Origin: a virus
DNA: 64,000 nt
IMG/VR virus record: IMGVR_UViG_3300025771_000012
Coordinates: 1-64,000 of that record
Direction: 5' to 3' (one strand)
Part shown: positions 8,039 through 57,378 of the stretch, piece by piece
Layout of the letters: every line of letters starts with the position of its first letter
Numbering within the stretch: the first letter of the stretch is position 1
Program-made: the position numbers and the translations under genes
Notes under the pieces: model-generated
Databases searched by the model: none
The model's input: only the letters and a program-made list of their open reading frames with translations
Told to the model about the DNA's origin: nothing

Positions 8039-8096
8039 TTGCCCTGCAGTTACAGAAATATTATTTTTCCAACCAAGGCCACCGCCTCCGCCACCG

Positions 8097-10620: not shown

Positions 10621-10623
10621 TTT

Positions 10624-10881
10624 TTATGCTCCTTGATGTTGATTGTCTGATTTAAACCACGCAACACCTTCATCTAAATCTTTCCATGCACTTCTTGAAC
10701 CATCGTTCTCATTTTTCCATGGTTGATTTAAGATTAATGTCTCGTTTTCGCCATCAATTATCCATACTTTTAAAGTACCGTCCTCAAGAATGGCTCTATG
10801 TGGCGTTGATTCTGTAGATTCTTCCACTTCGTTTGTTTCTTCGTTCAAAATATGAACTTCTTTGATTATATCAAAATTCAT
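10624..10881 (-). CDS. Small acidic protein, paralogue of the 75-aa gene (cassette copy 2)
   Basis: This 85-aa protein starts MNFDIIKEVHILNEETNEVE. It has a C-terminal pattern QPW, DGSR, SAW, DEG and AWFK that matches the 75-aa protein at 18604-18831 (QPW, GDGSR, SW, DE and TWFK). It sits at the same place in both adhesin cassettes, directly before the propeller-like gene, only 3 bp away. Such a fixed pairing suggests a partner or assembly factor for that large protein, but this is inference. No signal peptide or membrane segment is visible. The function is unknown. Confidence 0.6.
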   Translation of the reverse strand: MNFDIIKEVHILNEETNEVEESTESTPHRAILEDGTLKVWIIDGENETLILNQPWKNENDGSRSAWKDLDEGVAWFKSDNQHQGA

Positions 10882-10915
10882 TTTTATCTCCTAATTTTTT
10901 TTAAAATTTTTCTAC

Positions 10916-10923
10916 TATTTATA
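10916..10923 (-). promoter_or_regulatory. T4-type late promoter
   Basis: An exact TATAAATA on the minus strand lies 35 bp before the 85-aa gene. It could drive the 85-aa, 608-aa, glycine-rich, 455-aa and 850-aa genes, which are spaced by only 3-12 bp. Confidence 0.78.
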
Positions 10924-10929
10924 AATTGT

Positions 10930-30503: not shown

Positions 30504-33500
30504 TTAAGAGGTAAGTAGAGTTGTATCTGCATCGGTATTTTCGATACCATTTCCAGCAACTAGCATTAATAATCTCATACCATTGCCGTAAGCTTCGGAT
30601 GACATTAATCCTCTATACAGTCTCTTCTTATCTGTCGTTCCAGCAGTACTAAATCTATCACTAGAGATAAGAGTATCTTGACCCACCGCACCAGCAGCAC
30701 AGAAAGAAATCAAATCAAGTTCTTTACCTGTGTACAAGAATCGTTGAGATCCAAGTCTGTTAGGGAATTGAATGACTAACTGTCCTTTATCATTAAGAGA
30801 CAATTGTTCTAATGGATTAAGGACGGCATGAGAATCTGTTTCATTAATACCAGCAAAAACATGTCTATCCCATGGTTTCAAAACATCCTTTTCACGAACA
30901 ACAAAGCGTCTAAATCTTGATTGGGTGTCCATATCCAGTGCAAGCAACTCTTGGTTTTGCATTTCATCGATTGTGAAATTAAACAAGTAATTACCAGCGA
31001 CATCGTACAAACCAGTATATGCAATAGACTCTTCTCTCTTTGTTGTTTTAGAAGTAAAGTATGGAACTAAATCAGAGAACAATGTTGGTGGTTCGGAAGT
31101 TGCATAAACACAATGGATCGGTTGATGTTCTGATGAATAGTCAGCCTCACCAGTAATAGAATCAACGTGTCTTTGAACAACAAACCATGCGTGATCGTCT
31201 GCTTGATCTGATGATGCTTGGTCTCTAACCATCATCGAAATACCGTGATCTGCAAATGTTGCAGTAAATGACATTGGATAAGATACAGCAACATCTGGAT
31301 GTGATTTTCCAGTTCTTCTAAACCATCCTTTTTGAAGTCTTAGAGAACCAGAGTTATATGGAGTATCATATGTCAGTTCTGTAGAAGAACCTACCAAAAA
31401 TCTTTCCTCATATCTGTATTCATTATCATTTAATATTCCTTCTGTGACAACTTGTCCGTTATTTTTTGTGATAGTATACCCAGCAGGGTCTACAAAGGGC
31501 GTATATAACCCCGTAATTATTGTACCTGTAATATCAAAATGTTTTCTACCTACCAAACCAGCAGTTGGATTAAAATCAGTTACAACAGAATTTCTTAATT
31601 GTTCTCTATTCACAAAAGGACTAATTAAGTGGGATGCACTCTCTAGATATCCAGTAAACTGAGGACGCAATGCACCCAAGAAGCCTGGTTCTCTCATTTT
31701 TGCTTCTTTAGTACCATCTCTTCCTTCAATCTGAGAAACATCACCGTCTGATTTCAACTGGAATTCAGTTGCGACATGACATTTAAAATATTCAAAACTA
31801 TTTGAAGCATCAACATCTCCTCTTACTTGAAGAACTGCATCATTGATATATGGAGAAGTTTCTCTAACTTCATATCCTCTAGAAATATCAAAACGAATTC
31901 TCCATGGTTGGTCTCCATTATTTCCAGATAAAGAATTTGCACCTTTTGTCTGTAAAACAATTGGGCCCATTGAGTGATCTGTGATGTACTCAAAACTATC
32001 AATTTCTATTTCATGAGTATATGTGTTGAACTCTTTAAAACTTGTTTTAGACAAAGAAAGGCCAGGGTGTGTACTATTTGGGTGTCTAGTTCTTTGATCT
32101 AAATCAAAGGAAACTTGTGGCCCGACTGGTCTAGAACCATCTGTATGCAAAATATTTTGTTGATATGAAACAAAATATGAAGTATCCTTTGCATCAGCAC
32201 CAATCTGAACCTTCCAATTTCCATTTATTGGATTTGCAAAAGTACCAAAGTCTCTTGCAAGTGGAAATTGCATTCTAACTTTTGATACATCAGATATTTG
32301 TGGAGATTGTGTTTGTGAAAGTTCAAACTCCATTGGATCACCATCAACATCCGCATCACCACTAGAAGTTCTACCAGTATCTGTTGCAGTTAAAAGTGTT
32401 GCAAGAGTATATGTACCAGAAACTGTAAATGCAGTTGGTAGTGCGGTAGCATCTGCAACAGTGACACCATTAACAGGATAGTCAGTCACTGTGACTTCTC
32501 CAATTGTTGTGTTGGCAAAATGAGTAGAGTCTGCTAAAGATAACCCAGAAGATCTACCTTTTCCGCCGAATGCAAAATATGCAGATGAATTTTTATTATA
32601 TTCTAATATAATTGAAGAACCAGAAGATTTAACTGTCATATAGGTGTTGATATAACCGATTTGACGCAATTTGCTTACAATCTGGGATGTCATTTGTGCG
32701 GAGTTTAAATTTTCCAACGCCTTAAATTCAAGAACAATATCATCTAAAGTTGCATTTGCGGTGTCGTATACTCCTGCAGCGACTTTTGTTTCATCAACCA
32801 ATCCAGAAATTGTAATTACGGTGGTGTCCCCAATATTACAACCATCAAATCCTCTTAGTTGTACTTGATGGTAATATCCATTCGGGAAAACAGGTTCCGC
32901 TGCAAGTGTGGTTGTTCCATCTGTAATAGTAGATGTTGCAGTAGTAATAGGAACAGTAAATTGAGTTAAAGAGTTTACTAGAGTTGCCTGAGGGCGTTCC
33001 GTTCTTTCCACAGATACAGCAAGGTAGAAACCAACTTCTCTAGATTCGAATTGAATTACCCCTTCTCTATCGTCCTGATTAATTGACGCAAGGAAAGGCC
33101 CACCCTTTGGATCGCATAGTGCAGTTTTTACTAATACATCATAAATATCTTGCGTATATCCAACAATACTGTTATCTAAACCAACAGGTACATCAATTTC
33201 ATATTCGATAGTCGAATTTGGTGCAAGGTTTGTAACCGCAAAAGTAAACTTATAACTATCACCTCTTTGTAGATTATTACCATTAAATGTGTGAAGATAT
33301 CCTACAATCAATTCTCCACGATATCTCCTTGGTTCTAGTGTTCCTGCAGGAAAGAAAAATTCATCTCTATAGTTAGAAATCCAGAAATGGTGAAAAACAT
33401 CACCCTGTGATGTTACCTCTTCTCTATATTGACGAAGTTTTGCCTGTGTATTAATTCCAGATTCAATGTCTGGTAAAAATTTAACATCTCTCGCTGTATT

Positions 33501-34397
33501 TGTCAGACATCTTTTAATTTTATTGTATTCGTTTTGATAAACTGTCCTAGAAATATTTGGAAGTCCGATATATCCTGATTGATCTGTCTGTTCCAGTTTT
33601 ACAGGAGATGGAGCTTCTTTAAAAAAATGTCCATTCAACAGAGTTGCAGGTCTTGGATCGCCAGTACCAAATACCAAATTCTGTCCACTCACACTAATAA
33701 TGGGGTCTGAAAGAGTAACAACATTGATATTAATTGAAGTAATTGTTGGATATGGCGCCGAAAGTGCAACACCATTATTTGATCTCAATTCCATACCAAC
33801 AGACAATTGAGCTGCATTATAGGTGGTTACGGTAGTTGAACCAGCTGGGTCACTATCGGCATCAATAGTAACTGTAGTTGCCCAAGAACTATTTGCGCCG
33901 CCGCCCCTTCTATTTGGATGTGGGTTTAAATATGCAAATAATTCCGCATTTGGGCCCAATATTTTATCTGTAGTGAGACCTGCTGTACTGGCAGCTGTTG
34001 AAGATGGAAAGTTTTCTGATAACAAATCGTGCCAATCTTTATTGTCATAAACATCATCAATTTCTTTTCTTCTCGCTACTGAAGCTTCCCCATCTAAATA
34101 AAATGGAGTGAATGTCTGACCAGCAGTTGGTGACGTAGGATCGTCAATTCCATATGCACCTTCTGTTGACGATGTTGCGCCAGAATCATAATTCCACACG
34201 ATAAATTCATCAATATATTTTGTTAATTCTGAATCTCTGATCGAAATCTTTGTGATTTGTGGCCCGACATCATCAAATCCATTTTCTAAGAATTGTTCTG
34301 TTACTTGTTGTATAAGTGGAATAAAATCATCACGCTTTGGATCTCTGTAGTATCCGTCCATGTGAATGATTTCATTTTTTTGGATAGACTTAGACAT
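30504..34397 (-). CDS. Large virion protein, member 4 of a paralogous family
   Basis: This 1297-aa protein starts MSKSIQKNEIIHMDGYYRDP. It shares two conserved blocks with the 682-, 1427- and 1571-aa proteins. The first, near residue 1070, is DQADDHAWFVVQRHVDS followed by PIHCVYA. The second, near residue 1165, is RRFVVREKDVLKPWDRHVFA, then SHAVLNPLEQLS, RFLYTGKELDLISF, and YGNGMRLLMLVAG. Here the two blocks are only about 95 residues apart. The first 1000 residues are specific to this protein and mostly beta-rich. There is no signal peptide and no enzyme motif I can name. Size and position (between a short fibre and the giant fibre) suggest a baseplate or fibre-attachment component. That role is inferred. 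Confidence 0.6.
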   Translation of the reverse strand: MSKSIQKNEIIHMDGYYRDPKRDDFIPLIQQVTEQFLENGFDDVGPQITKISIRDSELTKYIDEFIVWNYDSGATSSTEGAYGIDDPTSPTAGQTFTPFYLDGEASVARRKEIDDVYDNKDWHDLLSENFPSSTAASTAGLTTDKILGPNAELFAYLNPHPNRRGGGANSSWATTVTIDADSDPAGSTTVTTYNAAQLSVGMELRSNNGVALSAPYPTITSININVVTLSDPIISVSGQNLVFGTGDPRPATLLNGHFFKEAPSPVKLEQTDQSGYIGLPNISRTVYQNEYNKIKRCLTNTARDVKFLPDIESGINTQAKLRQYREEVTSQGDVFHHFWISNYRDEFFFPAGTLEPRRYRGELIVGYLHTFNGNNLQRGDSYKFTFAVTNLAPNSTIEYEIDVPVGLDNSIVGYTQDIYDVLVKTALCDPKGGPFLASINQDDREGVIQFESREVGFYLAVSVERTERPQATLVNSLTQFTVPITTATSTITDGTTTLAAEPVFPNGYYHQVQLRGFDGCNIGDTTVITISGLVDETKVAAGVYDTANATLDDIVLEFKALENLNSAQMTSQIVSKLRQIGYINTYMTVKSSGSSIILEYNKNSSAYFAFGGKGRSSGLSLADSTHFANTTIGEVTVTDYPVNGVTVADATALPTAFTVSGTYTLATLLTATDTGRTSSGDADVDGDPMEFELSQTQSPQISDVSKVRMQFPLARDFGTFANPINGNWKVQIGADAKDTSYFVSYQQNILHTDGSRPVGPQVSFDLDQRTRHPNSTHPGLSLSKTSFKEFNTYTHEIEIDSFEYITDHSMGPIVLQTKGANSLSGNNGDQPWRIRFDISRGYEVRETSPYINDAVLQVRGDVDASNSFEYFKCHVATEFQLKSDGDVSQIEGRDGTKEAKMREPGFLGALRPQFTGYLESASHLISPFVNREQLRNSVVTDFNPTAGLVGRKHFDITGTIITGLYTPFVDPAGYTITKNNGQVVTEGILNDNEYRYEERFLVGSSTELTYDTPYNSGSLRLQKGWFRRTGKSHPDVAVSYPMSFTATFADHGISMMVRDQASSDQADDHAWFVVQRHVDSITGEADYSSEHQPIHCVYATSEPPTLFSDLVPYFTSKTTKREESIAYTGLYDVAGNYLFNFTIDEMQNQELLALDMDTQSRFRRFVVREKDVLKPWDRHVFAGINETDSHAVLNPLEQLSLNDKGQLVIQFPNRLGSQRFLYTGKELDLISFCAAGAVGQDTLISSDRFSTAGTTDKKRLYRGLMSSEAYGNGMRLLMLVAGNGIENTDADTTLLTS

Positions 34398-41028: not shown

Positions 41029-44000
41029 TCAACTAAAAAATCTGTTGCCCAATTCTCTATCAACAAATGGGCCAATATATTTATTTGCTGATAAGACAGG
41101 CGTTAAGACATATAATTTTATCTCACCATCTCTCATTACGATTGTACCAAGTTCCCTTGTTCCATCATCCTGACTGGGTGGATTACTTGGTGCGTCTTCA
41201 TCAATCTCTTCATCGTTTGTAGGCGGAACTGGTTGATCATCGTCAGGCTCTTCATCTGGAATAACTGGTGGTTGTGAATCATCATCAGTTTCTTCATCTG
41301 GAATAACTGGTGGTTTTCCATCATCATCAGTTTCTTCATCTGGAATAACTGGTGGTTTTCCATCATCATCGGTTTCTTCATCTGGAATAACTGGTGGTTG
41401 TGAATCATCATCAGTTTCTTCATCTGGAATAACTGGTGGTTTTCCATCATCATCAGTTTCTTCATCTGGAATAACTGGTGGTTTTCCATCATCATCAGTT
41501 TCTTCATCTGGAATAACTGGTGGTTCAGAAACATCTTCTGTATCATCTGTATCTGTTACTGGTGGTTCAGAAACATCTTCTGTATCATCTGTATCTGTTA
41601 CTGGTGGTTCAGAAACATCTTCTGTATCATCTGTATCTGTTACTGGTGGTTCAGAAACATCTTCTGTATCATCTTCGTCAGTAACAGGCGGTTCTGAAAC
41701 ATCTTCTGTTTCATCAGTATCTGTAGTGGGTGGTTCTGAAACATCTTCTGTAGTTTCTTCATCATCTACTACTGGTGTTGTGTCATCTTCTTGTGCATCA
41801 TCTAATGTTTCGTCTGCACCATCAGTATCAGTCTGCTCTTCTCCATCAGAAACTCGTATAGATGGGTCTGTTTCGAAATCATCTTCATCTCCTGACGGAA
41901 CTCCAGGCTGATCTTCTGGAACTTCATCATCTGAGCCAGTAGGAATCTCTTCATTGTCTGTATCATTTCCATCCGTAACTGGTGGTGTTGTATCATCTTC
42001 ACCCGCTTCATCGGTAGATGGAACTGAGTCCGTATCATCTTCACCATCTTCATCCGTAGATGGAACTGAGTCCGTATCATCAATAGAATCGTCACCAGAA
42101 GATTCTGTAGCATCTGTATCATCAACAGTATCGTCACCAGAAGATTCTGTGGTGTCGGTATCATCACCAACCGTTTCATCATCTGATGTAGATGTATCAG
42201 ATATATCATCTACTGTATCTTGTTCTCCGCCAACACCAGCATCACTATCTTCTACAGCATCATCTTCACTTGTCGGGTCTCCAGATTCATCTGTAGTTAC
42301 ATCTGTACCATCTTCGGTAGTATCTGTTTCGTCACTAACTGTATCATCTTCGCCTTTAGGGTCACTTGGTTGATCTGTAGTTACATCTGTACCATCTTCG
42401 GTAGTATCTGTTTCGTCACTAACTGTATCATCTTCGCCTTTAGGGTCACTTGGTTGATCTGTAGTTTCGTCTGTACCATCTTCAGTAGTATCTGTCTGAT
42501 CGTCAACTGTATCATCTTCTGAGGTTGGTTGGCCAGATTCATCTGTAGTTACATCTGTTCCATCTTCAGTAGTATCAGTTTCATCTTCCGTTTCATCTAC
42601 AGAGGATTCTGTTGAAGTTGTGTCATCTTCCGTTTCATCTACAGAGGATTCTGTTGAAGTTGTGTCATCTTCCGTTTCATCTACAGAGGATTCTGTTGAA
42701 GTTGTGTCATCTGTTGTTTCATCCGTTTCTGTTTCAGTTGAAGTTGTGTCATCTGTTGTTTCATCTATGTCTGAGACAGGTGGTTGGTTTGAATCTTCTC
42801 TATTATCAACATCAACTTCGATGCCGTCATTTTCATCATTTGGTTCTTCCGAATCAATTACTGGTTCATTTAACTCATCAGTGGTTTGATTATCATCGGT
42901 AGCAGAAGTTGTTGAGTCATCTTCAGATTCAGTGTCATCAGTAACAGAAGTTGTTGAGTCATCTTCAGATTCAGTGTCATCAGTAACAGAAGTTGTTGAG
43001 TCATCTTCTGAAGTCTCAGTATCTACTGCTGTTGTTGTTTCATCATCTTCAGATTCAGTATCATCGGTAGCAGAAGTTGTTGAGTCATCTTCAGATTCAG
43101 TACCATCAATAACGGAAGTTGTCGAGTCATCATTAGAGGTTTCATCTGCACTAGAAGTTGCGTCACTATCATCATCCACTCCATCATCACCAACATTATT
43201 AGTTTCTTGCTGATCTACTGATGTATCAGAATCGGATTCGGTATCTCCAGATTCGTCAACTGGTGTATCAGTATCTGTACTAACTTCTATTTGTTGATCT
43301 ACTGATGTATCAGAATCGGATTCGGTATCTCCAGATTCGTCAACTGGTATATCTGTTTCGGTTTCGATTATATTCTGTTCGTCAGTAACATCACTCGCAT
43401 CATCTGAAACTGGCTGAACTTCATCTTCGACCTCAGAATCTGGCGTTTCTGTTGTGCTAGGATCTTCTTCTGGCACCTCACTAGGAGTTGTAGTATCTTC
43501 GGTTGCATCTTCTGGAGTTTCGGTATCAGTTCCACCTTCAAGTTCAGAATCAGAAACCACATTTCCATCAGACACAGTTTCTGAAGATTCGTCTTCCTCA
43601 TCTAAAGATGGTGAAGGTGTAGCATCTGTATCGTCATCTACTGTAGCGTCTGGAGACTCTGTAGCATCTGTATCGTCATCTACTGTAGCGTCTGGAGACT
43701 CTGTAGTGTCCGTGGCATCATCTACTGTAGCATCTGGAGACTCTGTAGCATCTGTATCGTCATCTACTGTAGCGTCTGGAGACTCTGTAGTGTCCGTGGC
43801 ATCATCTACAGTTGCATCTGGAGACTCTGTAGTGTCCGTGGCATCATCTATAGTTGCATCTGGAGACTCAGTAGCGTCTGTACTATCGTCTACTGTGGCA
43901 TCATCTACTGAAGTTTCTGTAACCTCATCATCGACACTTGTATCAGAAGTTGTTGAATCTGCACTATCTTCTTCGACAACTTCTCCATCACTTCCAGTTG

Positions 44001-46085
44001 AAATTTGTTCGTCTGAAGTGGTGTCCTGCGAATCTACTGTTTCACTAGCAGCATCCAACTTTTCTTCCAGTTGTTGTTCTTCTGGAGACTCTTCTGTTCT
44101 TTCTTGCTCAACACCTTCCGTTGTTTCTACTGTGGTATCAATATCTGCAGTAACTTCTTCTACTACATCTTGTTCTTCTGAACTATCTAATGTAGAAGTT
44201 TCTATTACATCAACGGTTTCATCTTTTGCCTGATCTAGTGTTGATAACGTTTCAATTGTTTCATCAGTTTCTGGTAAAATAAATGTTTCAGTTAAAGTTT
44301 CTTCCAAAAATTCTTGTAGTACTGTTGAAAGACTTTCTCTGACCAATTCTTGGGTTATATTTTCTAATTGAATATTTTCTAAATCTAATAAAATATCTGG
44401 AGTTAAAAGACTTTGAATATCTTCTAAGTTTTGAATGTCTGCAGTTTTTAATTCTTCGGAATCACTTAATTCCGATAATACTTGAATTAGAAAATCTGGA
44501 GTTATTTCTTCGGCAAAAGATTCTAATTGATTTGTTAAAATATTTTCTAGGTCAGAAAAAAGATCTGATAGTTTTAATTCTTCGTTATCTGTTAATTCTT
44601 CTCTAACCTGTTCTAAAGAGCCTGTTGAATAGTAGAGCCTGTTGAATAGTATCTGAAAATGTATCTGGTGTAGATGTTTCTGGAGAATCAGTAACGGCAA
44701 GTAGTTCTTGTTCAGAAGTTTCTACAACCTCATCTTCTGCAAATGTATCTGGTGTAGATGTATCTGGAGAGTCTGTTACTGCCAACAACTCTTGTTCAGA
44801 AGTTTCTACAACCTCATCTTCTACAAATGTTTCTTGTTCTGAAGTTTCTGGAGAATCAGTAACGGCAAGTAGTTCTTGTTCTGAAGTTTCTGGAGAATCA
44901 GTAACGGCAAGTAGTTCTTGTTCTGAAGTTTCTACAATCTCATCTTCTACAAATGTATCTGGTGTAGATGTTTCTACAACCTCATCTTCTACAAATGTTT
45001 CTTGTTCTGAAGTTTCTGGAGAATCAGTAACGGCAAGTAGTTCTTGTTCTGAAGTTTCTGGAGAATCAGTAACGGCAAGTAGTAAGTAGTTCTTGTTCAG
45101 AAGTCTCTGAAACTTCATCTTCTACAAATGTTTCTTGTTCAGAAGTTTCTACAACCTCATCTTCTACAAATGTTTCTTGTTCTGAAGTTTCTGGAGAATC
45201 AGTAACGGCAAGTAGTTCTTGTTCAGAAGTTTCTACAACCTCATCTTCTACAAATGTTTCTTGTTCTGAAGTCTCTAAAGTTTCTTGAACCAATTCTTGC
45301 GTATAATCTTGAGATTCTTGTGTTTCTAAAACACTATCAATCTCCGCATCCTTTGCGGTAATAACCTCTGTAATCTCCGCACTCTCTTGGACTGTTGTTT
45401 CTACAATATCAGTTTCAGAAGTTAAAATTGTATCTCTAAATTCTTCAAATTCTTGAGCAAGTAAAACTTGCAAATCACCAAGAGCTTCCTGATATGCCTC
45501 TGAAAAATTTTCTTGAATGAGTGTAGACAGTTCTTCTTTTACACTTTCAAAATCTACATCACCAGCATTTAATTGGTTTATAATACTTTGAAATACAGTT
45601 GTATCAGAATCTGTTAATGTAGGAGATGTCGTATCAATCTTTTCAAGATCATCATTGGTCGAGGAAGTTGACCTATCTGAGTCAAAGTTCGCAACCTCTG
45701 GATCGTTTAATTCGACAATATAATCTATTGTTGTGCCATCTGCAACAATACTGTATGTGTTGGATTGATTTAGGGTTGGATTTTCTAAAGATAATTGTAC
45801 TACATCGTTATTAGATATTGTTGTACTTGTACCTTGACTAGTGCCATTGACAAGAATATCTCCAGCAGAAAATGACAGTGTTATAGAAGATGCAAGACCA
45901 GAAACAAATACTATGTTTGATAATACGGTAATATCCCAAGAAGTTGTTGTTGCATTATAAGTGTATGTAAGTCCATTTTGTTCAACAACTTGGCCATCAG
46001 ATGGGCCATTGATTCCAACTGGAGAATCAATTCCAACCTTGACTTTTATTACATCGTTAAATAAAAATATATTTTCTACAGACAT
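41029..46085 (-). CDS. Giant acidic 14-residue-repeat protein (frame interrupted by two short insertions)
   Basis: The ATG at 46085 starts a 271-residue front part (MSVENIFLFNDVIKVKVGID) with a variant of the fibre module (GPSDGQVVEQNGLTYTYNAT, then W) and a beta-rich domain. Next come 15 repeats of 14 residues (TSEQELLAVTDSPE / TSEQETFVEDEVVE). A helical acidic linker of about 120 residues follows, then 74 repeats of 14 residues with Asp at position 1, and a 42-residue tail (RELGTIVMRDGEIKLYVLTP to NRFFS). The frame shifts at a 7-bp duplication (45077-45090) and again at a 17-bp-period duplication (44617-44650). Removing 7 bp and 16 or 19 bp gives one protein of about 1676 aa. It is extremely rich in Asp, Glu, Thr and Ser and probably extended. 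The function is unknown; a fibre stalk or cation-binding surface protein is possible. Confidence 0.7.
41158..44265 (-). repeat. 74 contiguous 42-bp (14-residue) coding repeats
   Basis: Counting back from the C-terminal tail, every 14 residues start a new unit without a gap, and the arithmetic closes exactly (74 x 42 = 3108 bp). Asp is at unit position 1 in 67 of 74. Local families include DATDTTESPDATVD, DDSTTSVTDDTESE, DDTTSTESSVDETE, DVSEPPVTDTDDTE and DDGKPPVIPDEETD. Confidence 0.92.
44617..44650. repeat. 17-bp-period tandem duplication at a frameshift
   Basis: AGAGCCTGTTGAATAGT occurs at 44617-44633 and again at 44634-44650. The reading frame of the acidic protein changes here; a net insertion of 1 mod 3 (for example 19 bp) would restore QQALEQVREE. 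Confidence 0.85.
44636..45272 (-). repeat. 15 coding repeats of 42 bp (TSEQ family)
   Basis: Fifteen 14-residue units run from 45272 to 44636 once the extra 7 bp at 45077-45090 are removed. They alternate among TSEQELLAVTDSPE, TSEQETFVEDEVVE and TSTPDTFVEDEIVE types. Confidence 0.9.
45077..45090. repeat. 7-bp tandem duplication causing a frameshift
   Basis: AAGTAGT is repeated twice in tandem. With one copy removed, EQELL runs on in frame into AVTDSPE, as in every other unit of this repeat family. Confidence 0.88.
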
Positions 46086-46159: not shown

Positions 46160-49100
46160 TTATGAACCAAAGTTTACATAATTCCCGTTCCAAGAAGAAC
46201 CAACATTCTTAGTGAATGCGAATGTTCCTACAGCAAGCGTTCCTACAGTAGAACCACTACTTCTGACAGTAATGGAACCGGCACTAGAAGAAACCTCAGT
46301 TACTGTGAGTGTAACTGTATCGCCCTCTGTTGTAGTTACCGAAGAAGTAGCACCTACTAAAATATCAGAAGAGATACTAGTGACAGTCGCACCAGAAATT
46401 GTGGATGTACCGACATTAATTACTGCATCATCGGCAGTAACTAAATTACCTGAGCGTTCACCATCATCGAATGTATAGTCTACTCCTCCAAGAGTTTCAA
46501 TAGCACCGTTAACAGCACCTGTTGGGAAGTTATCTGAAATTCCTCTTACATCTCTTGGTGTATAGTCACTATATGATGGTCTGATTGGGCCACCTCTTGT
46601 TAAGATGAAGATTCTCATACCATTACCAAATGGTTTAGTAGACATCATACCCACATAAGTTCTATGTGTTGAGTTTTCTGTTGTGTCAAATGCATCAGTT
46701 GTTCCATCTGACTGTTTCACATTGTGCCAGAAATACTCTCTTCTGAAGTTAAGTGGATCAGTATTAGAAGATGTAGATGCAGTACCACCTTGTGGACTTA
46801 ATGTACTAGCATGTTGTCCGTCAAGGTCATATTTAGTTGCAGATGTCTTAATGATACCACCTTGAGTAGAACTATCCGCACCAGCGATACAGATCAAGTC
46901 TGCTTCTGCGTCACTATAGATAAATCTTTGTGATGCAAGTGGTGTTGGGAAGTTAAAGATAACAGTTTTATCCTGTGTAATCGATAACTGTTCAACAGGG
47001 TTAATACATGCAGGACTGTCAACCTGTGGTGTAACAGCAGAGACATGATAATCCCATGGTTTAAACACATCGTTTTCACGAACAATAAATCTGTAGATAC
47101 CTTTTGCAACTTTATGAATATCGTTCCAGATTGCAGGAATATCTCTGTCTTCTGGAAGTTTAATCAAGTAAGTTGATCTACCAGTATCTCTTTCTTCCAC
47201 ATCATTATAGTTTTCATATGAAATCTTAACAACTGTGGCAAACTCTAGAGGTTCGTTAAATTTAACTTTGTCCGTAGTTAATGAATATGCATACATTGGT
47301 TTTTGAACACCAAAGTATTCTGTAGAACCACCAGTCGTACCAAATTCAATATTACCAGAAGAATCGAATTGATAATTCTGTCCTTGAACCGCAGCATCTG
47401 CCTCTTGTCCATCAACAAACACTTTAAGTCTGTTAACCTCAAAGAGTGGGTTAGATGCAGTACCATATCTACCAAAGAAGTTGGTATACTCATTGTTAAA
47501 TCCAGCACCTTCCCATGCATATTCATAGATGAATTGGTCATTTTCTGGGAAGGAGTCGATTATAGAAAGAACTCTAAATCCAAATCCTGCAGTTTGTGCA
47601 GTTGCGGTTGTAAGTTCATCTCCAACCTTTACATCACCAGTAGAACCAGTTCCATCTAATACAATGAAGTCTTGTCCAATACCACCAGTCGCAGCCGTTT
47701 GGACAGCAGCACCAGCAGAATCAAGTGCAAGTTTGTGTCCAACTGCATTTCCACCAAATGAAGAACCAGTAACAGGAACTAATGTTAAGTCAGTAATACC
47801 ACCCAATGCACCAGCAAATTGTCCTTGAGTACCAAGAAGAGGATTCGAACCTGTCCCAGTTGTTGCACCAATATCTAAGTTGTCAACGAAAAGAATTCTG
47901 CGTCTTCTCTTTGCAACAAGATTCTTAGCAGCAACAGATGTTGGTGTAAAGATTGCAACCGTTGAACTGATTGGAAGTTCTCTTGCCTGTCCGTTTGCAT
48001 CAGTCGCAGGCGCAACTTCAGTTTTACTTACAAACTGGAAGTCAGTTTCATAATCCAAGAAGGTGTCAACACCATCAGAACTTCTGTGACGAACTCTGTA
48101 TGTACGCAAACCTAACTGAGCAGGGCCTTGCATTTGTGTTCTTGCAACGGAATAGTTTTTCAAACCTTTACCATCTTGGTCATTAATTAATGTCCAAGAA
48201 GATGGGGCCCCATTAGTGTCTATGACATCATATCTCGAGCCGGAACCAGTACCATTTTCAAAACCAGTAATATAGTCACCTACTGGTACAAATGAACTAC
48301 CATATGCAGAACCAAAGTTTAATGCAAATGCATCTCTATCAAAAGGCGGCACACTCAGATTACTTTGAATAACTGCAAGTTCTGCAGTACCCAATCCACG
48401 ATCAGTCGGGCCAGCCTGGAGGTTCGCAGCAGTAATCTCTGGGAATTTATAGTAGTCGTTAACAACTGTAAATCCAGTTGCGGAATCTGTTCCTAACGCA
48501 CCATGGTCGGCAAGTGGAACGTTTGCAGTAGAAGAAGTGTTCAGATATGAAAGTCCTCTACCGTATGCTTCTGGGATCAATGCAACAGGTCTTGAGTCAG
48601 TAGGAATTGTTACATTCACTGGAAGTCCCGGCTTCAGTTTTCTACCGTTTACATCAAAGATTTCCAATTCATCCAATGACTTAGATGTGACTGTTGTTGC
48701 ACCAGTAGTTGTATTCAACTCTTCACTAACCTCTGCAAAGAAACCGATATTAAAATCTGATGTTTCTTCTGGTCTAGAAGATGGAGAATACAAGCAGTGA
48801 ACTGGAGACTTACCATCTTCGAATTCAATTTTACCAGAAATGTTGTTAACATGTCTTTGAATAACAAACCATGCATAATCGTCATCTTGGTCAACGGAGG
48901 CCTGATCGAATACGAAAAGTCCAGTACCGTGGTCAGTACAAGTCAAACGGAATGCGATTGGATATGTTGGTTCTGTATCATCTGTAGTTTTACCTTGTCT
49001 GCGGAAGAATCCAGATTTCGCCTTGTTACTATCGTTTGAGAAGTTATAGTAAATTTCACTAAGTTCTCCAGGCTGTCTGTAAACTGCCTGTTTGATACCG

Positions 49101-50875
49101 TCACGACCTTGTCCTTTTGAAAGGTCTCCGTTATCTTTAATTTGCAATGCAGTAGCAACATTTACATAAAGATATTCATCTCTAGTGTCATAGAAGAAAC
49201 GCATTCTCCACTTCTGTGGTTTACGAGCATCTTTAACTGGCTGAGTCAATGAAACTGAAGTTGGAATCGCATCTGTAGCACTATTAATTTCTTTCTTGGA
49301 TGAAAGTAAGTCTGTACCTTTTTCCGATTCAACAACAAACATATCACCAATTCTTTTAATTGCAGCCATTACATTTCTGTGATTTTGTTGTCCATCATTT
49401 CCAATTGGAATTGGTGTGTTACTATCTGTATCCACAAATGGATAAATTATGTTGTAGGGTTGTGCTTCAAAATCAGATACAGGAATTGCGAGTCTCCATT
49501 TTCCTGTTGCATATGATTTATCTCCTGCAACCATACCAGTAATTGGTTCACCGTCTGTTGCATCTTCATATGAAAATGGATTACTTTCTTCATTATTCGT
49601 ACTTGTCATTTCAAGAGTTGCGACATATGGATTTAATGTATGTCCATCACCTGTAACTCTAAGAATTGCAACACCCGAACCATTTACTTCGACAATTCTT
49701 TTTCCATCGTCTGCAGCGGTAAAACCACTTTCGTCAGTAACACCGAACCGTACACCAGCATCGTCATAAAGTTCTACAGATGCGCCATCTACTGCACCGC
49801 CCTTAATTACAATGGACGCTGATCTTTGTGGAACACTAGAAAACGCAGAACTATAGTAGTTACCATATGGGTGTAAACATAAATCTTTTGCAAGAGTTCT
49901 TAAGAAGCCATCACTTGCAGAAGGATCTTTGTCAGTATCAATAAAGTACTCTAAAAGAACTGTATCACCAACTTGGAAAGATTCACTTCTCCAAGTTACT
50001 GTTCCGTAATCGAATGCAAGTTGGGTTGATGTTGTTACTGCTTCTACAGTGATTACCAAATCACTTCCACCATCATTTCCAAGTTCGCTGTTTGGAATAG
50101 TGATTGTGTCAGCAATTACATAAGTTTCACCGAACTCCAATGGAACGACTTTTGTTACTGTGCCACCAGCATCAACATATACTTGGAATTTTGCACCACT
50201 ACCAGCAACAGAATCTGTAGTTGTTGTTGCAACATAATAGACGCCTGGCCTATGTCCTGTTTGTCCACTAGTGATGTTTACGGAAGTAAGTGCGCCAATA
50301 CCTTCAAAGAACGAAACATAAAACTGTCCTTCATCTGGACTTTCATCAATTTTTGCACTTAAAGTTTGTGCAGCAGCTGCATCGTAATTGTTACCAGAAG
50401 AAACAATATCAACCGAAACAATTCTACCAGAATTATCAGAAGTTGCAGTTACAACTGCAGGAGTTAATGTTCCACTTGTTGGTTCACCACCTCTAATATT
50501 TACATTAAAAGTTGTATTTGGTGCATAACCAAAACCACCATCAAGAACATTGATAGATTGAATTGCACCGTTTGCATCTAATTGAATTGAACCAAGAACA
50601 GAAGGAAGATTTCCGTTTCTATATGTTTGTTTTAATGGGCGTGTAACAGTTGTAACAGTACCACCAACAAATACTCTTCTCTGTGAAGAGAGTGCATATG
50701 GTGCGATTCTGTCAAATTCGTGTTGGGCCGGTTTTGAAAGCCTTGTATATGTCTGATTGAAACTATTCAAAAATTCGAACTTCTGTGCGTATTTCTGCTG
50801 TTGCATAGATACCATTTCGTTTCTTTGAATAGAAAATCCACCAGAAAGGAACTCTGTCGATAATGCAGTAGTCAT
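46160..50875 (-). CDS. Large virion protein, member 3 of a paralogous family
   Basis: This 1571-aa protein begins MTTALSTEFLSGGFSIQRNE. It has the shared block RKPQKWRMRFFYDTRDEYLY, then GQGRDGIKQAVYRQPGEL, and near residue 660 DQDDDYAWFVIQRHV with PVHCLYSP. The second shared block begins near residue 1258 with YRFIVRENDVFKPWDYHVSA, then SPACINPVEQLSIT, QRFIYSDAEADLI and PFGNGMRIFILTRGG. About 600 residues lie between the blocks, against about 100 in two other family members, so an extra domain set seems inserted there. A further 130-residue Ser/Thr-rich extension ends the protein (SSWNGNYVNFGS). It is followed by a strong terminator. Function inferred: tail or baseplate structural protein. 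Confidence 0.62.
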   Translation of the reverse strand: MTTALSTEFLSGGFSIQRNEMVSMQQQKYAQKFEFLNSFNQTYTRLSKPAQHEFDRIAPYALSSQRRVFVGGTVTTVTRPLKQTYRNGNLPSVLGSIQLDANGAIQSINVLDGGFGYAPNTTFNVNIRGGEPTSGTLTPAVVTATSDNSGRIVSVDIVSSGNNYDAAAAQTLSAKIDESPDEGQFYVSFFEGIGALTSVNITSGQTGHRPGVYYVATTTTDSVAGSGAKFQVYVDAGGTVTKVVPLEFGETYVIADTITIPNSELGNDGGSDLVITVEAVTTSTQLAFDYGTVTWRSESFQVGDTVLLEYFIDTDKDPSASDGFLRTLAKDLCLHPYGNYYSSAFSSVPQRSASIVIKGGAVDGASVELYDDAGVRFGVTDESGFTAADDGKRIVEVNGSGVAILRVTGDGHTLNPYVATLEMTSTNNEESNPFSYEDATDGEPITGMVAGDKSYATGKWRLAIPVSDFEAQPYNIIYPFVDTDSNTPIPIGNDGQQNHRNVMAAIKRIGDMFVVESEKGTDLLSSKKEINSATDAIPTSVSLTQPVKDARKPQKWRMRFFYDTRDEYLYVNVATALQIKDNGDLSKGQGRDGIKQAVYRQPGELSEIYYNFSNDSNKAKSGFFRRQGKTTDDTEPTYPIAFRLTCTDHGTGLFVFDQASVDQDDDYAWFVIQRHVNNISGKIEFEDGKSPVHCLYSPSSRPEETSDFNIGFFAEVSEELNTTTGATTVTSKSLDELEIFDVNGRKLKPGLPVNVTIPTDSRPVALIPEAYGRGLSYLNTSSTANVPLADHGALGTDSATGFTVVNDYYKFPEITAANLQAGPTDRGLGTAELAVIQSNLSVPPFDRDAFALNFGSAYGSSFVPVGDYITGFENGTGSGSRYDVIDTNGAPSSWTLINDQDGKGLKNYSVARTQMQGPAQLGLRTYRVRHRSSDGVDTFLDYETDFQFVSKTEVAPATDANGQARELPISSTVAIFTPTSVAAKNLVAKRRRRILFVDNLDIGATTGTGSNPLLGTQGQFAGALGGITDLTLVPVTGSSFGGNAVGHKLALDSAGAAVQTAATGGIGQDFIVLDGTGSTGDVKVGDELTTATAQTAGFGFRVLSIIDSFPENDQFIYEYAWEGAGFNNEYTNFFGRYGTASNPLFEVNRLKVFVDGQEADAAVQGQNYQFDSSGNIEFGTTGGSTEYFGVQKPMYAYSLTTDKVKFNEPLEFATVVKISYENYNDVEERDTGRSTYLIKLPEDRDIPAIWNDIHKVAKGIYRFIVRENDVFKPWDYHVSAVTPQVDSPACINPVEQLSITQDKTVIFNFPTPLASQRFIYSDAEADLICIAGADSSTQGGIIKTSATKYDLDGQHASTLSPQGGTASTSSNTDPLNFRREYFWHNVKQSDGTTDAFDTTENSTHRTYVGMMSTKPFGNGMRIFILTRGGPIRPSYSDYTPRDVRGISDNFPTGAVNGAIETLGGVDYTFDDGERSGNLVTADDAVINVGTSTISGATVTSISSDILVGATSSVTTTEGDTVTLTVTEVSSSAGSITVRSSGSTVGTLAVGTFAFTKNVGSSWNGNYVNFGS

Positions 50876-50969: not shown

Positions 50970-53900
50970 TTAACTTCCTAGTGTCGACCCAGGCGCAGTA
51001 CCAGGCGTTACATCACTGTATCTAATACTAGAACCAGTAACTTGCATAAACACTCTCATACCATTTCCATTTGGTAATGTTGCAGACATACCTTCATACT
51101 TTCTGGCATTTTTTCTCCAAATATACTTAACCCCATCAGGGCCTTCATGTCCTGCATATCTTGTAACTTCAGCAGGAGAAGTTGAAGAAATTGAGGCAGG
51201 AACAAAAGAACCACCTCTAAACTCTTCATTTACTCCATCCGAATCATCATATTTGTTTATTTCTACATGACCCGATTGTGTCGAGAAATCTGCAGAAGAA
51301 ATACAAATAATATCAAGTTCACTTTGTGGATAATAGAATCTTTGAGTTGTTATCTGAGTTGGGAACGAGAAAACAAAATTTCTATCTTGTGTAATAGAAA
51401 GTTGTTCCATCGGATTGATAACAGCATGAGAATCGATTTCGTGCATTGTTGCAGAAACATGGAAATCCCATGGTTTTAATACATCTTGTTCTCTAACAAC
51501 AAATCTATTGATTGTTTTCACTTCATTCATATTTCTTTCTGGGAAATCTCTATCCTCTGGAACAGTAATAATATATGCACCCTGAGCAGGATTTGAAGTA
51601 ACATAGTTAATAATAGATATTGTCAATTCTGCGCCCGCTCTTGGAGAAACCTTAAAATAGAGCGTCTGATTGAAGAAATCATACATGTATTCATTTTTCA
51701 AAGAACTTTGGTCAGTCCACACTGGGTCTCCAGGCATTTTGTTCAAAAGATTTTCTCTTACAGATGACTGAACCGCATGATTGGCTGCCACTAATGCATA
51801 AGTTGGTTGGTTCGCAGAACTTGCGCCGGCGTGTGCGTAAAAGAAATTTCTTCCAGTAGATGGGTTTGTGTCACCAACTGTCAATGTTTTGGTTGCGACA
51901 TCAACATTGTCCCATCTAATAGTAGTTCCATCTATAGAAGGAACTCTAAAATCTGAACCAATTGTTGTAACCCCAGCGGCGTCTAAAGACTCCACAAATC
52001 TCTGTACTGTATTAGGATCACCATGACTAACCCATTCGTCATAAGATAAAATATATGCACTCTTATCTCTAATAATTTCTACATCGTCCAATGCAATAAC
52101 CATAGACTCAAAAATTTTGTCCATGTTTGCAACTGGAGCACTGTATAGAATATCTAGTAATGCAGAATCTGCAGATTTATAATCAACAAGTCCAACAGAA
52201 GTATCAGATGTGGGTACTCCATCACCAGAACGTGATGCGTACTTAAATGTTGACATTCTTTCTAAAAGGTTTTGTGGGAATGCAACATTTTCCGACAAAC
52301 TCACTCCTGCATTAGAACCCATGACATATTGCGCCGGTACTGCAGTCGAAGAAGTGAGGATCTCTCCAGAACGATCATAATGTTCCAGTCCATCAATTGT
52401 AGTTGTTGTTGTTGGATCTGTCGCAGGCGGAACTGCAGGAGTTACTGTAAATGTTTTAATCTGTTCAACCGCCGATGGCGATGGTGATGCACCAGTTGTA
52501 AATGCAACATCCTTCCTTCTTGGAAGAGAGTTAAAACCTTGAATTTGAAGGTCAAAAACAGCATGTTGAAATTCTTCTTGGAATGTATTTCCTGTAGGCC
52601 CATCTAGTGGAATTGCAACGAAGTCACCAGTAGTTTCAGCAGTGAAATCAATCGATACATCACCCGATCCAGAAGTTCCTTCTTTTAGTACCAATGGTGA
52701 TGGTGGTGCATCAGGGTCAGCGCCTTCGGCAGCTGGTGGGCGTGCGAAGGTTAGTCCAACATGTCCAGCGATAATTAATCTACCAGTTTCTTTATTAAAC
52801 GCAACGATTCTACCACCTTTTCGTGTAATATTTCCTTCTGCATCTGTAATTTCTTGTGCGATAAACTTCCCTGGCGTCAAGACTTCTACATTTCTAACTC
52901 CACTAGAAGCAAATGCAGTAGAAACTGTTATGTCTCTATCAATTTGCAACCTATGAGCAGTTAATGACCAAAGATTCTGATTTTCTGCATATCCTGTTCC
53001 AGTAAATCCTCTCGTAAGGTCACTTCTAATATCGTTATAGTATAATTGTCCTAATGTGTTTGTGGTGGTTCCGCCTGTTGCATATCCAATTGGATTAAAG
53101 TCGATTGCATTAACAATTCCATTAAATAACGCAAGATCTCTGTTAACAAAGATAGTCGGCGCTTCTGATCTGAAAACTTGTCCAAGTGAGTTTTGGATTG
53201 GGCCAGGTTTACTTAAATCATCCAAATCTTGAGATGCAAAATATGGAGTTAGACTTGCAACATCTACAGGACGTTTGCATGGCGAATATACACAGTGTAC
53301 TGGAGACTTTTCAGCAAACTCTGGTTGTCCAGTTGTTTGGTCAACATGTCTTTGTACTACTAACCATGCGTAATCATCGTCTTGATCCACTGATGCATGG
53401 TCAAATAAGAAAAGTCCCAAACCATGATTTGTAACTGTAAGTCTATAAGACATTGGATATGAGGTTGAAAGCGAATCTTCTATTTGAGTTTTTCTAAACC
53501 ACTGTGATTTGGCTTTACTCATTTGTAAGATTGCACCTCTACCAATCATTGGTGAACTATACACATCACACAACTCGCCGGGCTCTCTGTAAACAGGATT
53601 CTTAATCCCGTCACGGCCTTGTGGTTGTGAAATAGTAAAATCATCTTTCAGCTGATAAGAAGTTGCAACATTTACTTTTAAATATCTTTCATCATCGTTC
53701 CACTCAAATCTCATTCTCCACTTCTGTGGTTTTCTTACGGCAGAAGGAGAAAGACTTGATGCAAAACTCAAGTTAGTGTCTGATAATAAATCGACACCTT
53801 TGTTGGACTCAACTAAGAATCCATTTGTAATTCTTCTCAATGCATCTTTAACATCTTCTTTATCGTTACTAACTGGAGTAGGATAAATCAAATCGAATGG

Positions 53901-55253
53901 TCTTTGGAAGTTATCATTTTCTTGGAATGTAAGCATCCAAGATGTGCCTTCCTCTGTGGTTGCCAACTCGTCTTTCTGTCCAGATGCAGTAATCGCAGCT
54001 GCAATATTTGGAGTATCAGTTGTTTGGTCGTAGAAAAATGCAACGAAACCATTTACTGCAGTACCTGTTGGTTGTCCATCTGATGTTGTTGCCTTTGAGT
54101 ACGCCCAGTAATCAGTATCAACTGCATTGTTTTTTGGCCATGAATAATCATTTGCACCACCAGAAAGTGTCTCTTGCTGGGGGCCCAGTCCGCCAGGCCC
54201 CACTAATGCACCATACGGAACATCAATTGTCTTACCCCAATGGTAAGATATAGTAAACACGCATTGACTTAGGTCTGAGACCCAAGGCATTACCTCTGTT
54301 CTTTTAAATTTAAATAGAGTTGACCTTGAAACATTATTAGAAGTCGCAATCCAATCTTCAGACGGTAAAACTCTTCCATTCAAAGAAACTCTAAATTCAC
54401 CAGAACCAAGATCAGAAATTGTAAGTGGGAAATCTCCGATGATACTTGGCCATGTATTTGAATCAGAAGGGTCAATACTTGCAAACGGTGTTGCACCACC
54501 CGAACCTAAGTTTAATTCTGTAACTACTTTATGTTCTCTCACAACTTTCCAAAGTTTACCAGCAACTAATTGATCTGCTGGCGTACCATCTTCGGAATAA
54601 TCTCTGTTATACTGAACTGGTAATACCTGTTGATACGCAGTAAGATTTCCAGTTCCTGTGTCAATTTCATTAAGGATTTCACTTGTGGTAAAATCGCTGG
54701 TAATTTCATTGCCAGGAGTACCATCTGCATCAGTATCAAAAGTTACATCTCTACTTAAATTTAAATTAAAGATTTCTGGGAATTCAAATGGATGAACTGT
54801 TAAATCGTGTGCCAGTTGGAATAAAAGTCCACCATCACTTCCTGTGAAATGTGTAACATGTTCGATATACTTGATTTCAATTATTTCACCAGAAATAGGT
54901 CTAACCTCTTCTGCAAAAACAATTCCACCAAACTCTCCCAACGCCGAATCGTATCTAATCGAACCTTGTCCTGCAGAAGTACTACCCTCTACATAAACTC
55001 TATCTTTATATAATTCTGCATCAGTTGCAGTTACCCCAGACACCATAGAGTTATTACCTAAACCTCTGTTAAGGTAAAAACGTGTTTCTCCAATTCTAAT
55101 ATCCCATTCCCAATCCTTATCAGAAACATCAGGTCTTGATCTTAAAAAATAAATATTAGACCCACTCAGTGCATTGTGTGTTTCAACTTGACTGCGGTGA
55201 GGGACATCGATAATGTCATTTCTTTGTATGCTATATCCACTGGCAATAGACAT
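50970..55253 (-). CDS. Large virion protein, member 2 of a paralogous family
   Basis: This 1427-aa protein begins MSIASGYSIQRNDIIDVPHR. The first shared block is RKPQKWRMRFEWNDDERYLK, GRDGIKNPVYREPGEL and, near residue 620, DQDDDYAWLVVQRHVD with PVHCVYSP. The second, near residue 1246, is INRFVVREQDVLKPWDFHVS, SHAVINPMEQLSIT, QRFYYPQSELDIICI and PNGNGMRVFMQVTG. About 625 residues separate the blocks, as in the 1571-aa protein, and that insert is only weakly alike between the two. No membrane segment or catalytic motif is visible. It lies 76 bp downstream of the 682-aa gene, with its own late promoter. Confidence 0.62.
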   Translation of the reverse strand: MSIASGYSIQRNDIIDVPHRSQVETHNALSGSNIYFLRSRPDVSDKDWEWDIRIGETRFYLNRGLGNNSMVSGVTATDAELYKDRVYVEGSTSAGQGSIRYDSALGEFGGIVFAEEVRPISGEIIEIKYIEHVTHFTGSDGGLLFQLAHDLTVHPFEFPEIFNLNLSRDVTFDTDADGTPGNEITSDFTTSEILNEIDTGTGNLTAYQQVLPVQYNRDYSEDGTPADQLVAGKLWKVVREHKVVTELNLGSGGATPFASIDPSDSNTWPSIIGDFPLTISDLGSGEFRVSLNGRVLPSEDWIATSNNVSRSTLFKFKRTEVMPWVSDLSQCVFTISYHWGKTIDVPYGALVGPGGLGPQQETLSGGANDYSWPKNNAVDTDYWAYSKATTSDGQPTGTAVNGFVAFFYDQTTDTPNIAAAITASGQKDELATTEEGTSWMLTFQENDNFQRPFDLIYPTPVSNDKEDVKDALRRITNGFLVESNKGVDLLSDTNLSFASSLSPSAVRKPQKWRMRFEWNDDERYLKVNVATSYQLKDDFTISQPQGRDGIKNPVYREPGELCDVYSSPMIGRGAILQMSKAKSQWFRKTQIEDSLSTSYPMSYRLTVTNHGLGLFLFDHASVDQDDDYAWLVVQRHVDQTTGQPEFAEKSPVHCVYSPCKRPVDVASLTPYFASQDLDDLSKPGPIQNSLGQVFRSEAPTIFVNRDLALFNGIVNAIDFNPIGYATGGTTTNTLGQLYYNDIRSDLTRGFTGTGYAENQNLWSLTAHRLQIDRDITVSTAFASSGVRNVEVLTPGKFIAQEITDAEGNITRKGGRIVAFNKETGRLIIAGHVGLTFARPPAAEGADPDAPPSPLVLKEGTSGSGDVSIDFTAETTGDFVAIPLDGPTGNTFQEEFQHAVFDLQIQGFNSLPRRKDVAFTTGASPSPSAVEQIKTFTVTPAVPPATDPTTTTTIDGLEHYDRSGEILTSSTAVPAQYVMGSNAGVSLSENVAFPQNLLERMSTFKYASRSGDGVPTSDTSVGLVDYKSADSALLDILYSAPVANMDKIFESMVIALDDVEIIRDKSAYILSYDEWVSHGDPNTVQRFVESLDAAGVTTIGSDFRVPSIDGTTIRWDNVDVATKTLTVGDTNPSTGRNFFYAHAGASSANQPTYALVAANHAVQSSVRENLLNKMPGDPVWTDQSSLKNEYMYDFFNQTLYFKVSPRAGAELTISIINYVTSNPAQGAYIITVPEDRDFPERNMNEVKTINRFVVREQDVLKPWDFHVSATMHEIDSHAVINPMEQLSITQDRNFVFSFPTQITTQRFYYPQSELDIICISSADFSTQSGHVEINKYDDSDGVNEEFRGGSFVPASISSTSPAEVTRYAGHEGPDGVKYIWRKNARKYEGMSATLPNGNGMRVFMQVTGSSIRYSDVTPGTAPGSTLGS

Positions 55254-55329: not shown

Positions 55330-57378
55330 TTATGCAGGTGTTCCCACAGGGTCATATGTGTCAAGATTGATATCACTATTAAAAATATATTGTCCATTTA
55401 CTAAGACTAGTAATCTCATTCCATTTCCAAATGCCATAGTTGAACGCATTCCTTGGTATCTTCTTTGGTCTACATTAGTACCATTGTATAGGTATGTTGT
55501 CATTGGTACATTACTGGATTCTGCTACTACTTCTGCAGATGAAAAACAAATCATATCCATCTCTTCTTTAGGATACATATATCTCTGTGTTGTTAGTCCA
55601 GTTGGAAAGGTAATGATAAATCTATTTTCATCTGTAATGGCCAATTGTTCTAATGGATTAATAACTGCATTACTATCTGTCTGATGTTTTGTTGCAAATT
55701 TATGCACATCAGTTGGTTTTAATACATCAAATTCTCTTACAACAAATCTCCAAATATTTTTTGCCTGCCATTCATCGGCAAGATAGTCTTCTCTATCGTA
55801 TGGACTTAATATATAGAATGTTTTTGAATTGTCCATATTTGATAAATTGTATATATTTCCTGCTTCATCGAATACTGTGTCTACCAAATCTTCTGCAGTC
55901 TGTAGGTTTGCTGCTTGATTGGAAAAGTAAATTCCAGCATCAGAAGAATAAAAACTTTCTCTAGAACAAGAATACATACAATGAACAGGGAATTTTGACG
56001 CTTCGTCTGTTCTTGGAAGTCCCGACTCATTGCTTGATGTTCTTTGTATACAGAACCATGAATAATCGTCTGCCTGATCTGCAGCAGCATCATCATACAT
56101 GTAAAGAACAATACCCTTTTCTGTCATAGTAAGCCTATATGAGAACGGATAGGTTCCTTGCAATTCTGCATTCATTTTTGGAAATCTTTTAAACCAACCA
56201 TAACCCTTTCTTTTATTTCTAAATCTAATCGACCTGTTATTAACATATTTCTTATAATCCGTTCCAGAAGGTGCGCCTGCCTGATTAAATGAAGAACCTG
56301 TATCTGGAATGTAGAAGGTTGCAAGTGGATACTCTGTAAAAGTATGAACTGTAGAAGAACCTGTTCCACCAGCGTCAATATCTGCCTGATCTGCTGCAGC
56401 CTTATCTAAGTATACTGGATAATAATATCCTTGATTAATACCATAGTTACCAGTATCTGTGTTTTGTCCAAAGACAAAATATGGCCCTGTATTTGCAACA
56501 TCTGCAGTAATAGTTACATCATCAAAATGCAAGTCTACCATTTCACCTGGCATTCTTATAATAGAAGTATCAACAGTTGAACCATTTTCTAATGTAATCA
56601 ATCCATCAGTCGTAAGTTGTGGACTTGAAATAGTACCATCTGTACTAATTTGATTAGACGTTCCTACATTTACCTTAAACCATCCATACATAGGATTTGG
56701 AATACCGACTGTAGTTTCCCAACCACTATTTAAAATCCCATTATAACTGTAGCCTGGATGATATTGTGGCTGATACTCTGCCTCTAGTACAGTATTTCCT
56801 TCTTGATATTTTGGCCTTCCCTGCGATGCCATTCTAAGATTTAGTTGATACAATTCACTATTAAATTCTTTATCACCACTCGTACCAACACCGGCACCAA
56901 ACAAACGTGGTCTAAGGTCGAATTCAAATCTTATTCTATAATTTTGATCAATACCTCTCGCAACTGCACCAGACTTAGGCAGAATTTGATTTGTGGTCTG
57001 AAAAATCATAACATGTTGCTCTGGATTGGTTCCATCACCAACCTCACTGAAGTTTGCAACCCCAGCATATACACCACTACCCCCACCATTTGCAGAAGTT
57101 GGGCGGTTTAGTGATATCTGACTAAAGAACTGTTTTGTTATTTGAGTTGTAACTAGAGTTTGAGTCTCATCAATTAATTCATTTCCAGCGATTGGTTCAC
57201 CAGCAAATAATGGCCATTCTCTTGCCAAATCTTCAGCAAGAACGCCCATAAATCCGCCACTGATACTACCATCATTACTGTTTACGCCACCATTACCAAT
57301 TACAGAAGTAAATGAATTTCTTTGACGAGATATTCCAAAATTAGGAAAGTAGTTTGGGTCTATATTTCTCTGTGCCAT
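55330..57378 (-). CDS. Virion protein, member 1 (shortest) of a paralogous family
   Basis: This 682-aa protein begins MAQRNIDPNYFPNFGISRQR. It has the family blocks in compact form: near residue 430 DQADDYSWFCIQRTSSNESG with PVHCMYSCSR, and near residue 540 IWRFVVREFDVLKPTDVHKF, SNAVINPLEQLAIT, QRYMYPKEEMDMICF and AFGNGMRLLVLVNGQ. The blocks are about 108 residues apart, with no large insert, so it may represent the minimal version of the fold. Several Cys residues (CIQR, HCMYSC) cluster near the first block. A near-consensus late promoter precedes it. The role is inferred to be structural. Confidence 0.62.
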   Translation of the reverse strand: MAQRNIDPNYFPNFGISRQRNSFTSVIGNGGVNSNDGSISGGFMGVLAEDLAREWPLFAGEPIAGNELIDETQTLVTTQITKQFFSQISLNRPTSANGGGSGVYAGVANFSEVGDGTNPEQHVMIFQTTNQILPKSGAVARGIDQNYRIRFEFDLRPRLFGAGVGTSGDKEFNSELYQLNLRMASQGRPKYQEGNTVLEAEYQPQYHPGYSYNGILNSGWETTVGIPNPMYGWFKVNVGTSNQISTDGTISSPQLTTDGLITLENGSTVDTSIIRMPGEMVDLHFDDVTITADVANTGPYFVFGQNTDTGNYGINQGYYYPVYLDKAAADQADIDAGGTGSSTVHTFTEYPLATFYIPDTGSSFNQAGAPSGTDYKKYVNNRSIRFRNKRKGYGWFKRFPKMNAELQGTYPFSYRLTMTEKGIVLYMYDDAAADQADDYSWFCIQRTSSNESGLPRTDEASKFPVHCMYSCSRESFYSSDAGIYFSNQAANLQTAEDLVDTVFDEAGNIYNLSNMDNSKTFYILSPYDREDYLADEWQAKNIWRFVVREFDVLKPTDVHKFATKHQTDSNAVINPLEQLAITDENRFIITFPTGLTTQRYMYPKEEMDMICFSSAEVVAESSNVPMTTYLYNGTNVDQRRYQGMRSTMAFGNGMRLLVLVNGQYIFNSDINLDTYDPVGTPA

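Follow-up and report, generated by a model that had tools for sequence, protein, structure and literature searches.

Intrinsically disordered acidic tandem repeats form a general kind of stalk or extender in surface proteins, and disordered tandem repeats are usually expected to vary freely in length. The Asp-rich calcium-binding repeats of the RTX type are short, with a period of 9 residues, while the rings of T4-type tails have a rise of roughly 40 Å. Whisker-like appendages have been described in phage vB_PcaM_CBB, and the gene products behind them are not known (PMC5259590). Here, we analysed a window of 64,000 nucleotides (positions 1 to 64,000 of the IMG/VR virus record IMGVR_UViG_3300025771_000012, which comprises 135,728 bp), in which one minus-strand gene encodes a long acidic array of 14-residue units.

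The initial annotation had described 74 uninterrupted units of exactly 14 residues, 67 of them starting with Asp. Translation of 41158-44265(-) gave precisely this, namely 1036 gap-free residues, with Asp at unit position 1 in 67 and Asp or Glu in 70 of the 74 units. Since Asp makes up 25% of the array (T 19%, E 15%, S 11%), the chance of finding it first in so many units is P ~2e-32. Sixteen units match every other unit at no more than 6 of 14 positions, and 10 of these begin with Asp (P = 0.002). Tandem Repeats Finder, proposed earlier as a check with an expected period of 42 bp, independently returned 42-bp periods across much of 41236-43902. Units 1-8 are a degenerate transition out of the preceding helical segment. 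The net charge per residue of the array is ~-0.39, and its composition falls on the disordered side of the charge-hydropathy line; the arrays of other clades are much less charged.

The initial annotation had placed the array at the C-terminus of the acidic protein. The ORF 41029-44700, which carries the array, is only the last part of a gene that begins at ATG 46085, and the array lies in the C-terminal part of the protein but not at its very end, where a conserved 42-residue domain follows (41032-41157). The order in the protein is an Ig-like N-domain, a first 14-residue array (array A), a helical segment, the acidic array (array B) and the C-domain (Table 1). The helical segment of the homologue in contig L007 spans ~9 x 14 residues.

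Table 1. Features of the repeat-protein gene, in window coordinates.
Feature	Position	Strand	Description
N-terminal part	45223..46085	(-)	ATG 46085, Ig-like N-domain (IFLFND...VSGL...), then acidic/helical linker
Array A	44660..45222, ends approximate	(-)	~14 units of 14 residues: EQELLAVTDSPETS / EQETFVEDEVVETS / TPDTFAEDEVVETS
Helical segment between arrays A and B	44266..44650	(-)	LEQVREELTDNEELKLSDLFSDLENIL...
Array B, acidic	41158..44265	(-)	74 x 14-residue units, uninterrupted
Conserved C-terminal domain	41029..41157	(-)	42 residues + stop, RELGTIVMRDGEIKLYVLTPV...IGPFVDRELGNRFFS
17-bp tandem duplication	44617..44651	(-)	Frame changes here; L006/L007 read through
7-bp tandem duplication (AAGTAGT)	45076..45095	(-)	Frame shift; absent from contig L003

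In the window, the gene is divided into three ORFs in three frames (45066-46085, 44603-45118 and 41029-44700), with array A in frames other than that of array B. Both frame changes coincide with the short tandem duplications of 7 and 17 bp. Contig L003, which is 99.7% identical over 16.5 kb, is without the 7-bp duplication, and in contigs L006 and L007 a single open frame of 1682 codons spans the whole gene. Both breaks are therefore local; on this comparison of contigs they are probably assembly errors and less likely a real variant. Elsewhere in the window, two exact tandem duplications, 122 and 47 bp long (7793-8038 and 8097-8190), neither a multiple of 3, break the ORF series 6696-8784, and these resemble assembly errors as do the ones at 44-45 kb.

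The source is an uncultured T4-like marine myophage, with the repeat protein in its tail/baseplate module. The immediate upstream neighbour of the repeat gene has tail-sheath-like stretches (phrog_12249), and a fibre-like protein and a PAAR protein follow it. The window also encodes a wedge/tail-fibre connector, with baseplate wedge genes close by in G000. Beyond the window, the record encodes a gp6-type baseplate wedge, a tail tube, a DNA end protector and a probable tape measure. The repeat protein itself was rejected as the tape measure, since the separate 847-aa probable tape measure (L037:6565-9105) is encoded near the tail tube and DNA end protector genes, in the same neighbourhood as in Pelagibacter phage HTVC008M. 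By baseplate wedge gp6, the nearest cultured phages are HTVC008M and Methylophilales phage Melnitz (37-38% identity), both listed as Kyanoviridae. In their structural regions (~42 kb), no protein shows strong 14-residue periodicity. A weak relative of the sheath-like neighbour occurs in phage NCTB, but the stretch examined there encodes no such repeat protein. Bacterial and archaeal genomes yielded no relative of this neighbour.

Several further features of the record were observed. Four window proteins have phrog_12249 tail-sheath stretches (30504-34397, 46160-50875, 50970-55253 and 55330-57378, all on the minus strand), three of them of 1297-1571 aa with large extra regions, and a 3258-aa fibre-like protein (20660-30436(-)) carries 25-residue (75-bp) tandem repeats. 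A protein with CHASE2 and an adenylate/guanylate cyclase catalytic domain is encoded at L039:4780-6927(-), and HTVC008M also has a cyclase annotation. Curli-type genes lie at L039:7224-7919(-), 7840-8979(-), 9728-10540(-) and 10553-11044(-), record positions ~131.2-135.0 kb; they encode CsgG, CsgF, a curlin-repeat protein (PF07012) and, in addition, a protein with a FecR domain. In Melnitz and pelagimyophages, csgGF has been reported without csgA/csgB (PMC9004378), and a phage record in which csgGF is accompanied by a curlin-repeat gene may therefore be novel.

To collect homologues, IMG/VR was searched with the upstream neighbour, which gave 32 loci, and alignments of that neighbour added a few. 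At each locus of sufficient length, the next gene encodes a homologue with the same N-domain, and with the same C-domain where complete; in every usable locus, the repeat gene directly follows the protein with sheath-like stretches and precedes a fibre-like protein. The ~20 syntenic homologues measure 688-2334 aa between stops. Period 14 and its multiples are the top signal in 21 homologous proteins plus the window, with units unrelated in sequence, such as DDTPDSPQQFETAT (L012), DETPEVATQINSPT (L019), DESTTLVTGGETGE (L025) and DETSQTVSGAELIT (L028), and with hydrophobic units, predicted to be helical, in the clade of L031 and L032 (for example DILSILESSTIDTG in L032). At L028:16483-20437, two adjacent ORFs instead of one carry the N-domain and 14-residue repeats. 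Contigs L003, L004, L005, L008, L009, L011, L017, L019, L021 and L030-L032 end inside the repeat gene; public assemblies thus probably under-sample this family.

The earlier statement that no named phage family is of this type held. No match was obtained in Pfam at E <= 0.1 for the ORFs 41029-44700 and 45066-46085, in NCBIfam for L007, in PHROGs for L007, L025 and L029 (L032 gave short matches only, inside the repeats) or in a PDB sequence search. A tblastn search with three homologues against 50,697 phage records found no cultured-phage relative, scanning viral contigs for the N-domain brought in no further ones, and literature searches turned up no account of acidic 14-residue repeats in the tails of phages.

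The constancy of the unit length was examined by a self-match test on 19 proteins (28-residue windows, >=13 identities, lag modulo 14). The results showed that 96-100% of the self-matches fall at lag 0 in 18 of the 19 proteins and 90% in the array of the window, which has the most repetitive composition of the set, a property from which its off-phase matches may stem. Units of 13 or 15 residues, which would have told against the fixed length, were looked for in the other isolates and none was seen within the arrays. Between homologues of the repeat protein, 23 of 27 indels are multiples of 14, compared with 0 of 23 for the upstream neighbour; these counts carry no formal P value because the comparisons share lineages and are not independent. 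The non-14 indels, of 1 and 60 residues, both occur in L020, where they are located in the N-domain and the helical part, and each was counted in two comparisons. Moreover, neighbouring genes have ~1.5 small indels per 100 amino-acid substitutions, whereas the repeat proteins have almost none alongside ~1300 substitutions (pooled over overlapping pairs). Conservation of register over the whole protein was rejected, since the arrays and end domains are not in register with each other between clades; the length constraint thus acts inside the arrays. That relatives hold the exact unit length while nearly all of the sequence is swapped suggests that the spacing itself is under selection.

Ten arrays were then phased against each other by residue class with leave-one-out correlation. 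Nine showed one clear phase (correlation 0.46-0.71 vs 0.17-0.36 for the next best), and the second array of L028 showed none (0.22 vs 0.17). In the common unit profile, Asp/Glu occupies positions 1, 2 and 11 and Ser/Thr position 3, with small hydrophobic residues between; this weak pattern, [DE][DE][ST]...[DE], is common to the clades. Position 1 is the slowest (rate 0.033 vs a mean of 0.131 in four clades), and between the window and L007 none of 114 substitutions falls on it. The dN/dS of the array is 0.13-0.17, against 0.09-0.16 in neighbouring genes, which indicates purifying selection on the encoded protein. Register and sequence are both selected. The earlier proposal of a length constraint stronger than the sequence constraint is partly right: the constant length is real and kept against indels in ~20 homologues with unrelated units, but the sequence is constrained as well.

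On our preferred reading, a tentative one with a probability of about 0.45, the array forms an acidic stalk in a virion protein associated with the tail or baseplate, namely a disordered polyanionic tether with a single docking or cation site in every unit. The protein would have two conserved ends, the Ig-like N-domain and the small C-domain, with helical segments and 14-residue arrays running between them. The acidic array would behave as an extended, intrinsically disordered tether. Each unit would offer one selected anchor ([DE][DE][ST], its first Asp/Glu nearly invariant), probably for docking to a partner or for cation binding, which would oblige the units to keep register, and the length would change only by gain or loss of whole units through recombination between 42-bp repeats. 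The place in the virion is suggested by synteny. Disorder-like composition and tandem units of variable copy number, both found here, are the marks of an acidic disordered repeat stalk. A disordered tether alone needs no exact 14-residue register, and the docking or ion site was added to explain that register. Against a pure polyanion stand the hydrophobic helical units of the L031/L032 clade, and against the tether the differing register relative to the end domains.

A second possibility, which we regard as unlikely, is a repeat protein of a new kind, conserved only in its 14-residue spacing and one anchor residue, the chain being matched to a periodic partner or self-assembling into an oligomeric fibre, with sequence, charge and secondary structure free to change between lineages. 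Somewhat more doubtful is the structural rod suggested by the initial annotation, in which the units would stack, one coil or layer each, into a regular solenoid, either oligomeric or dependent on ions, so that an indel of a single residue would break the stacking. The strict unit length, the Asp/Glu columns, the common profile and the slow position 1 across clades are all consistent with it. AlphaFold2 modelling covered single chains of the homologues L029 and L032. In the model of L029, the N-domain is a beta-sandwich (10-residue blocks reach pLDDT ~92), the part corresponding to the helical segment forms long helices, and the C-terminus has a weak hairpin region; the acidic units are coil without strands, at pLDDT ~30-35. 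The model of L032 repeats a helix of 10 residues and a loop of 4 in each unit, exactly in phase, which favours a rod, but only at pLDDT ~45-50. Foldseek against PDB folds gave weak Ig-like matches only, none with E <= 0.001. As no fold was obtained for the acidic units of L029, the rod is unsupported, and a single shared fold is hard to see when one clade is helical and others acidic or coil.

It is improbable that the array is a neutral flexible spacer, whose 42-bp unit would persist only since tandem repeats recombine as whole units. Whole-unit gains and losses, the natural outcome of such recombination, are indeed seen, and the sequence is disordered-like; however, selection comparable to that on neighbouring genes and the near absence of small indels disfavour this explanation, and the 14-residue length also recurs in clades with unrelated units. 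Still less probable is a strap or ruler in which every unit would attach to a single ring or subunit of the tail sheath or tube, 14 residues (~40-46 Å extended) equalling the ring repeat. The estimated length of an extended unit fits a ring rise of ~40 Å, the neighbour has sheath-like stretches in all loci, and the lengths of tape measure and repeat protein loosely rise together in the few records with both. In those same records, however, the probable tape-measure open frames span 783-904 aa and the repeat protein 683-1877 aa, so the number of units is not proportional to tail length; moreover, the units of L031 and L032, predicted to be helical, would not be long enough for one unit to span a ring. 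We consider it very improbable that the array is a DNA mimic or an ejected polyanion that enters the cell with the genome: its charge would suit such a role, but the synteny is with tail/baseplate genes rather than early genes or internal head proteins, and the charge is much lower in other clades. That the assembler collapsed, expanded or invented the array can practically be dismissed, for although the frame is interrupted at exact short tandem duplications and many related contigs stop within the gene, L006 and L007, from other samples, have a full-length open frame, the same architecture and a nearly equal unit number, and distant relatives share the period.

The repeat proteins make up a new orphan family whose N- and C-terminal domains can be recognised. 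In a widespread family of uncultured marine phages, one unit length is kept while nearly all of the sequence is replaced, in a tail module without a cultured counterpart. This natural case of length conserved above sequence makes the question of what reads the spacing testable.

Compared with known systems, the protein resembles acidic disordered stalks in being of low complexity and highly acidic, with tandem units, whole-unit copy variation and two conserved end domains. It differs from them in its 14-residue unit length, which stays fixed between clades whose units are unrelated, in the near absence of small indels, in a common phase motif and in its location in a phage tail module. Short Asp-rich units that might bind cations recall RTX repeats, but the period is 14 instead of 9, no beta-roll is predicted in L029 and no curated repeat profile matched (Pfam at E <= 0.1 for the two ORFs, NCBIfam for L007). 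With the tape measure proteins of T4-like marine phages (e.g., HTVC008M AGE60354), it shares the character of a long tail-related protein of variable length, whereas its unit number is not proportional to tape-measure length here. The whisker-like appendages of vB_PcaM_CBB (PMC5259590), which are long and thin and borne on a contractile tail, represent a possible kind of structure, a likeness that serves only as a lead.
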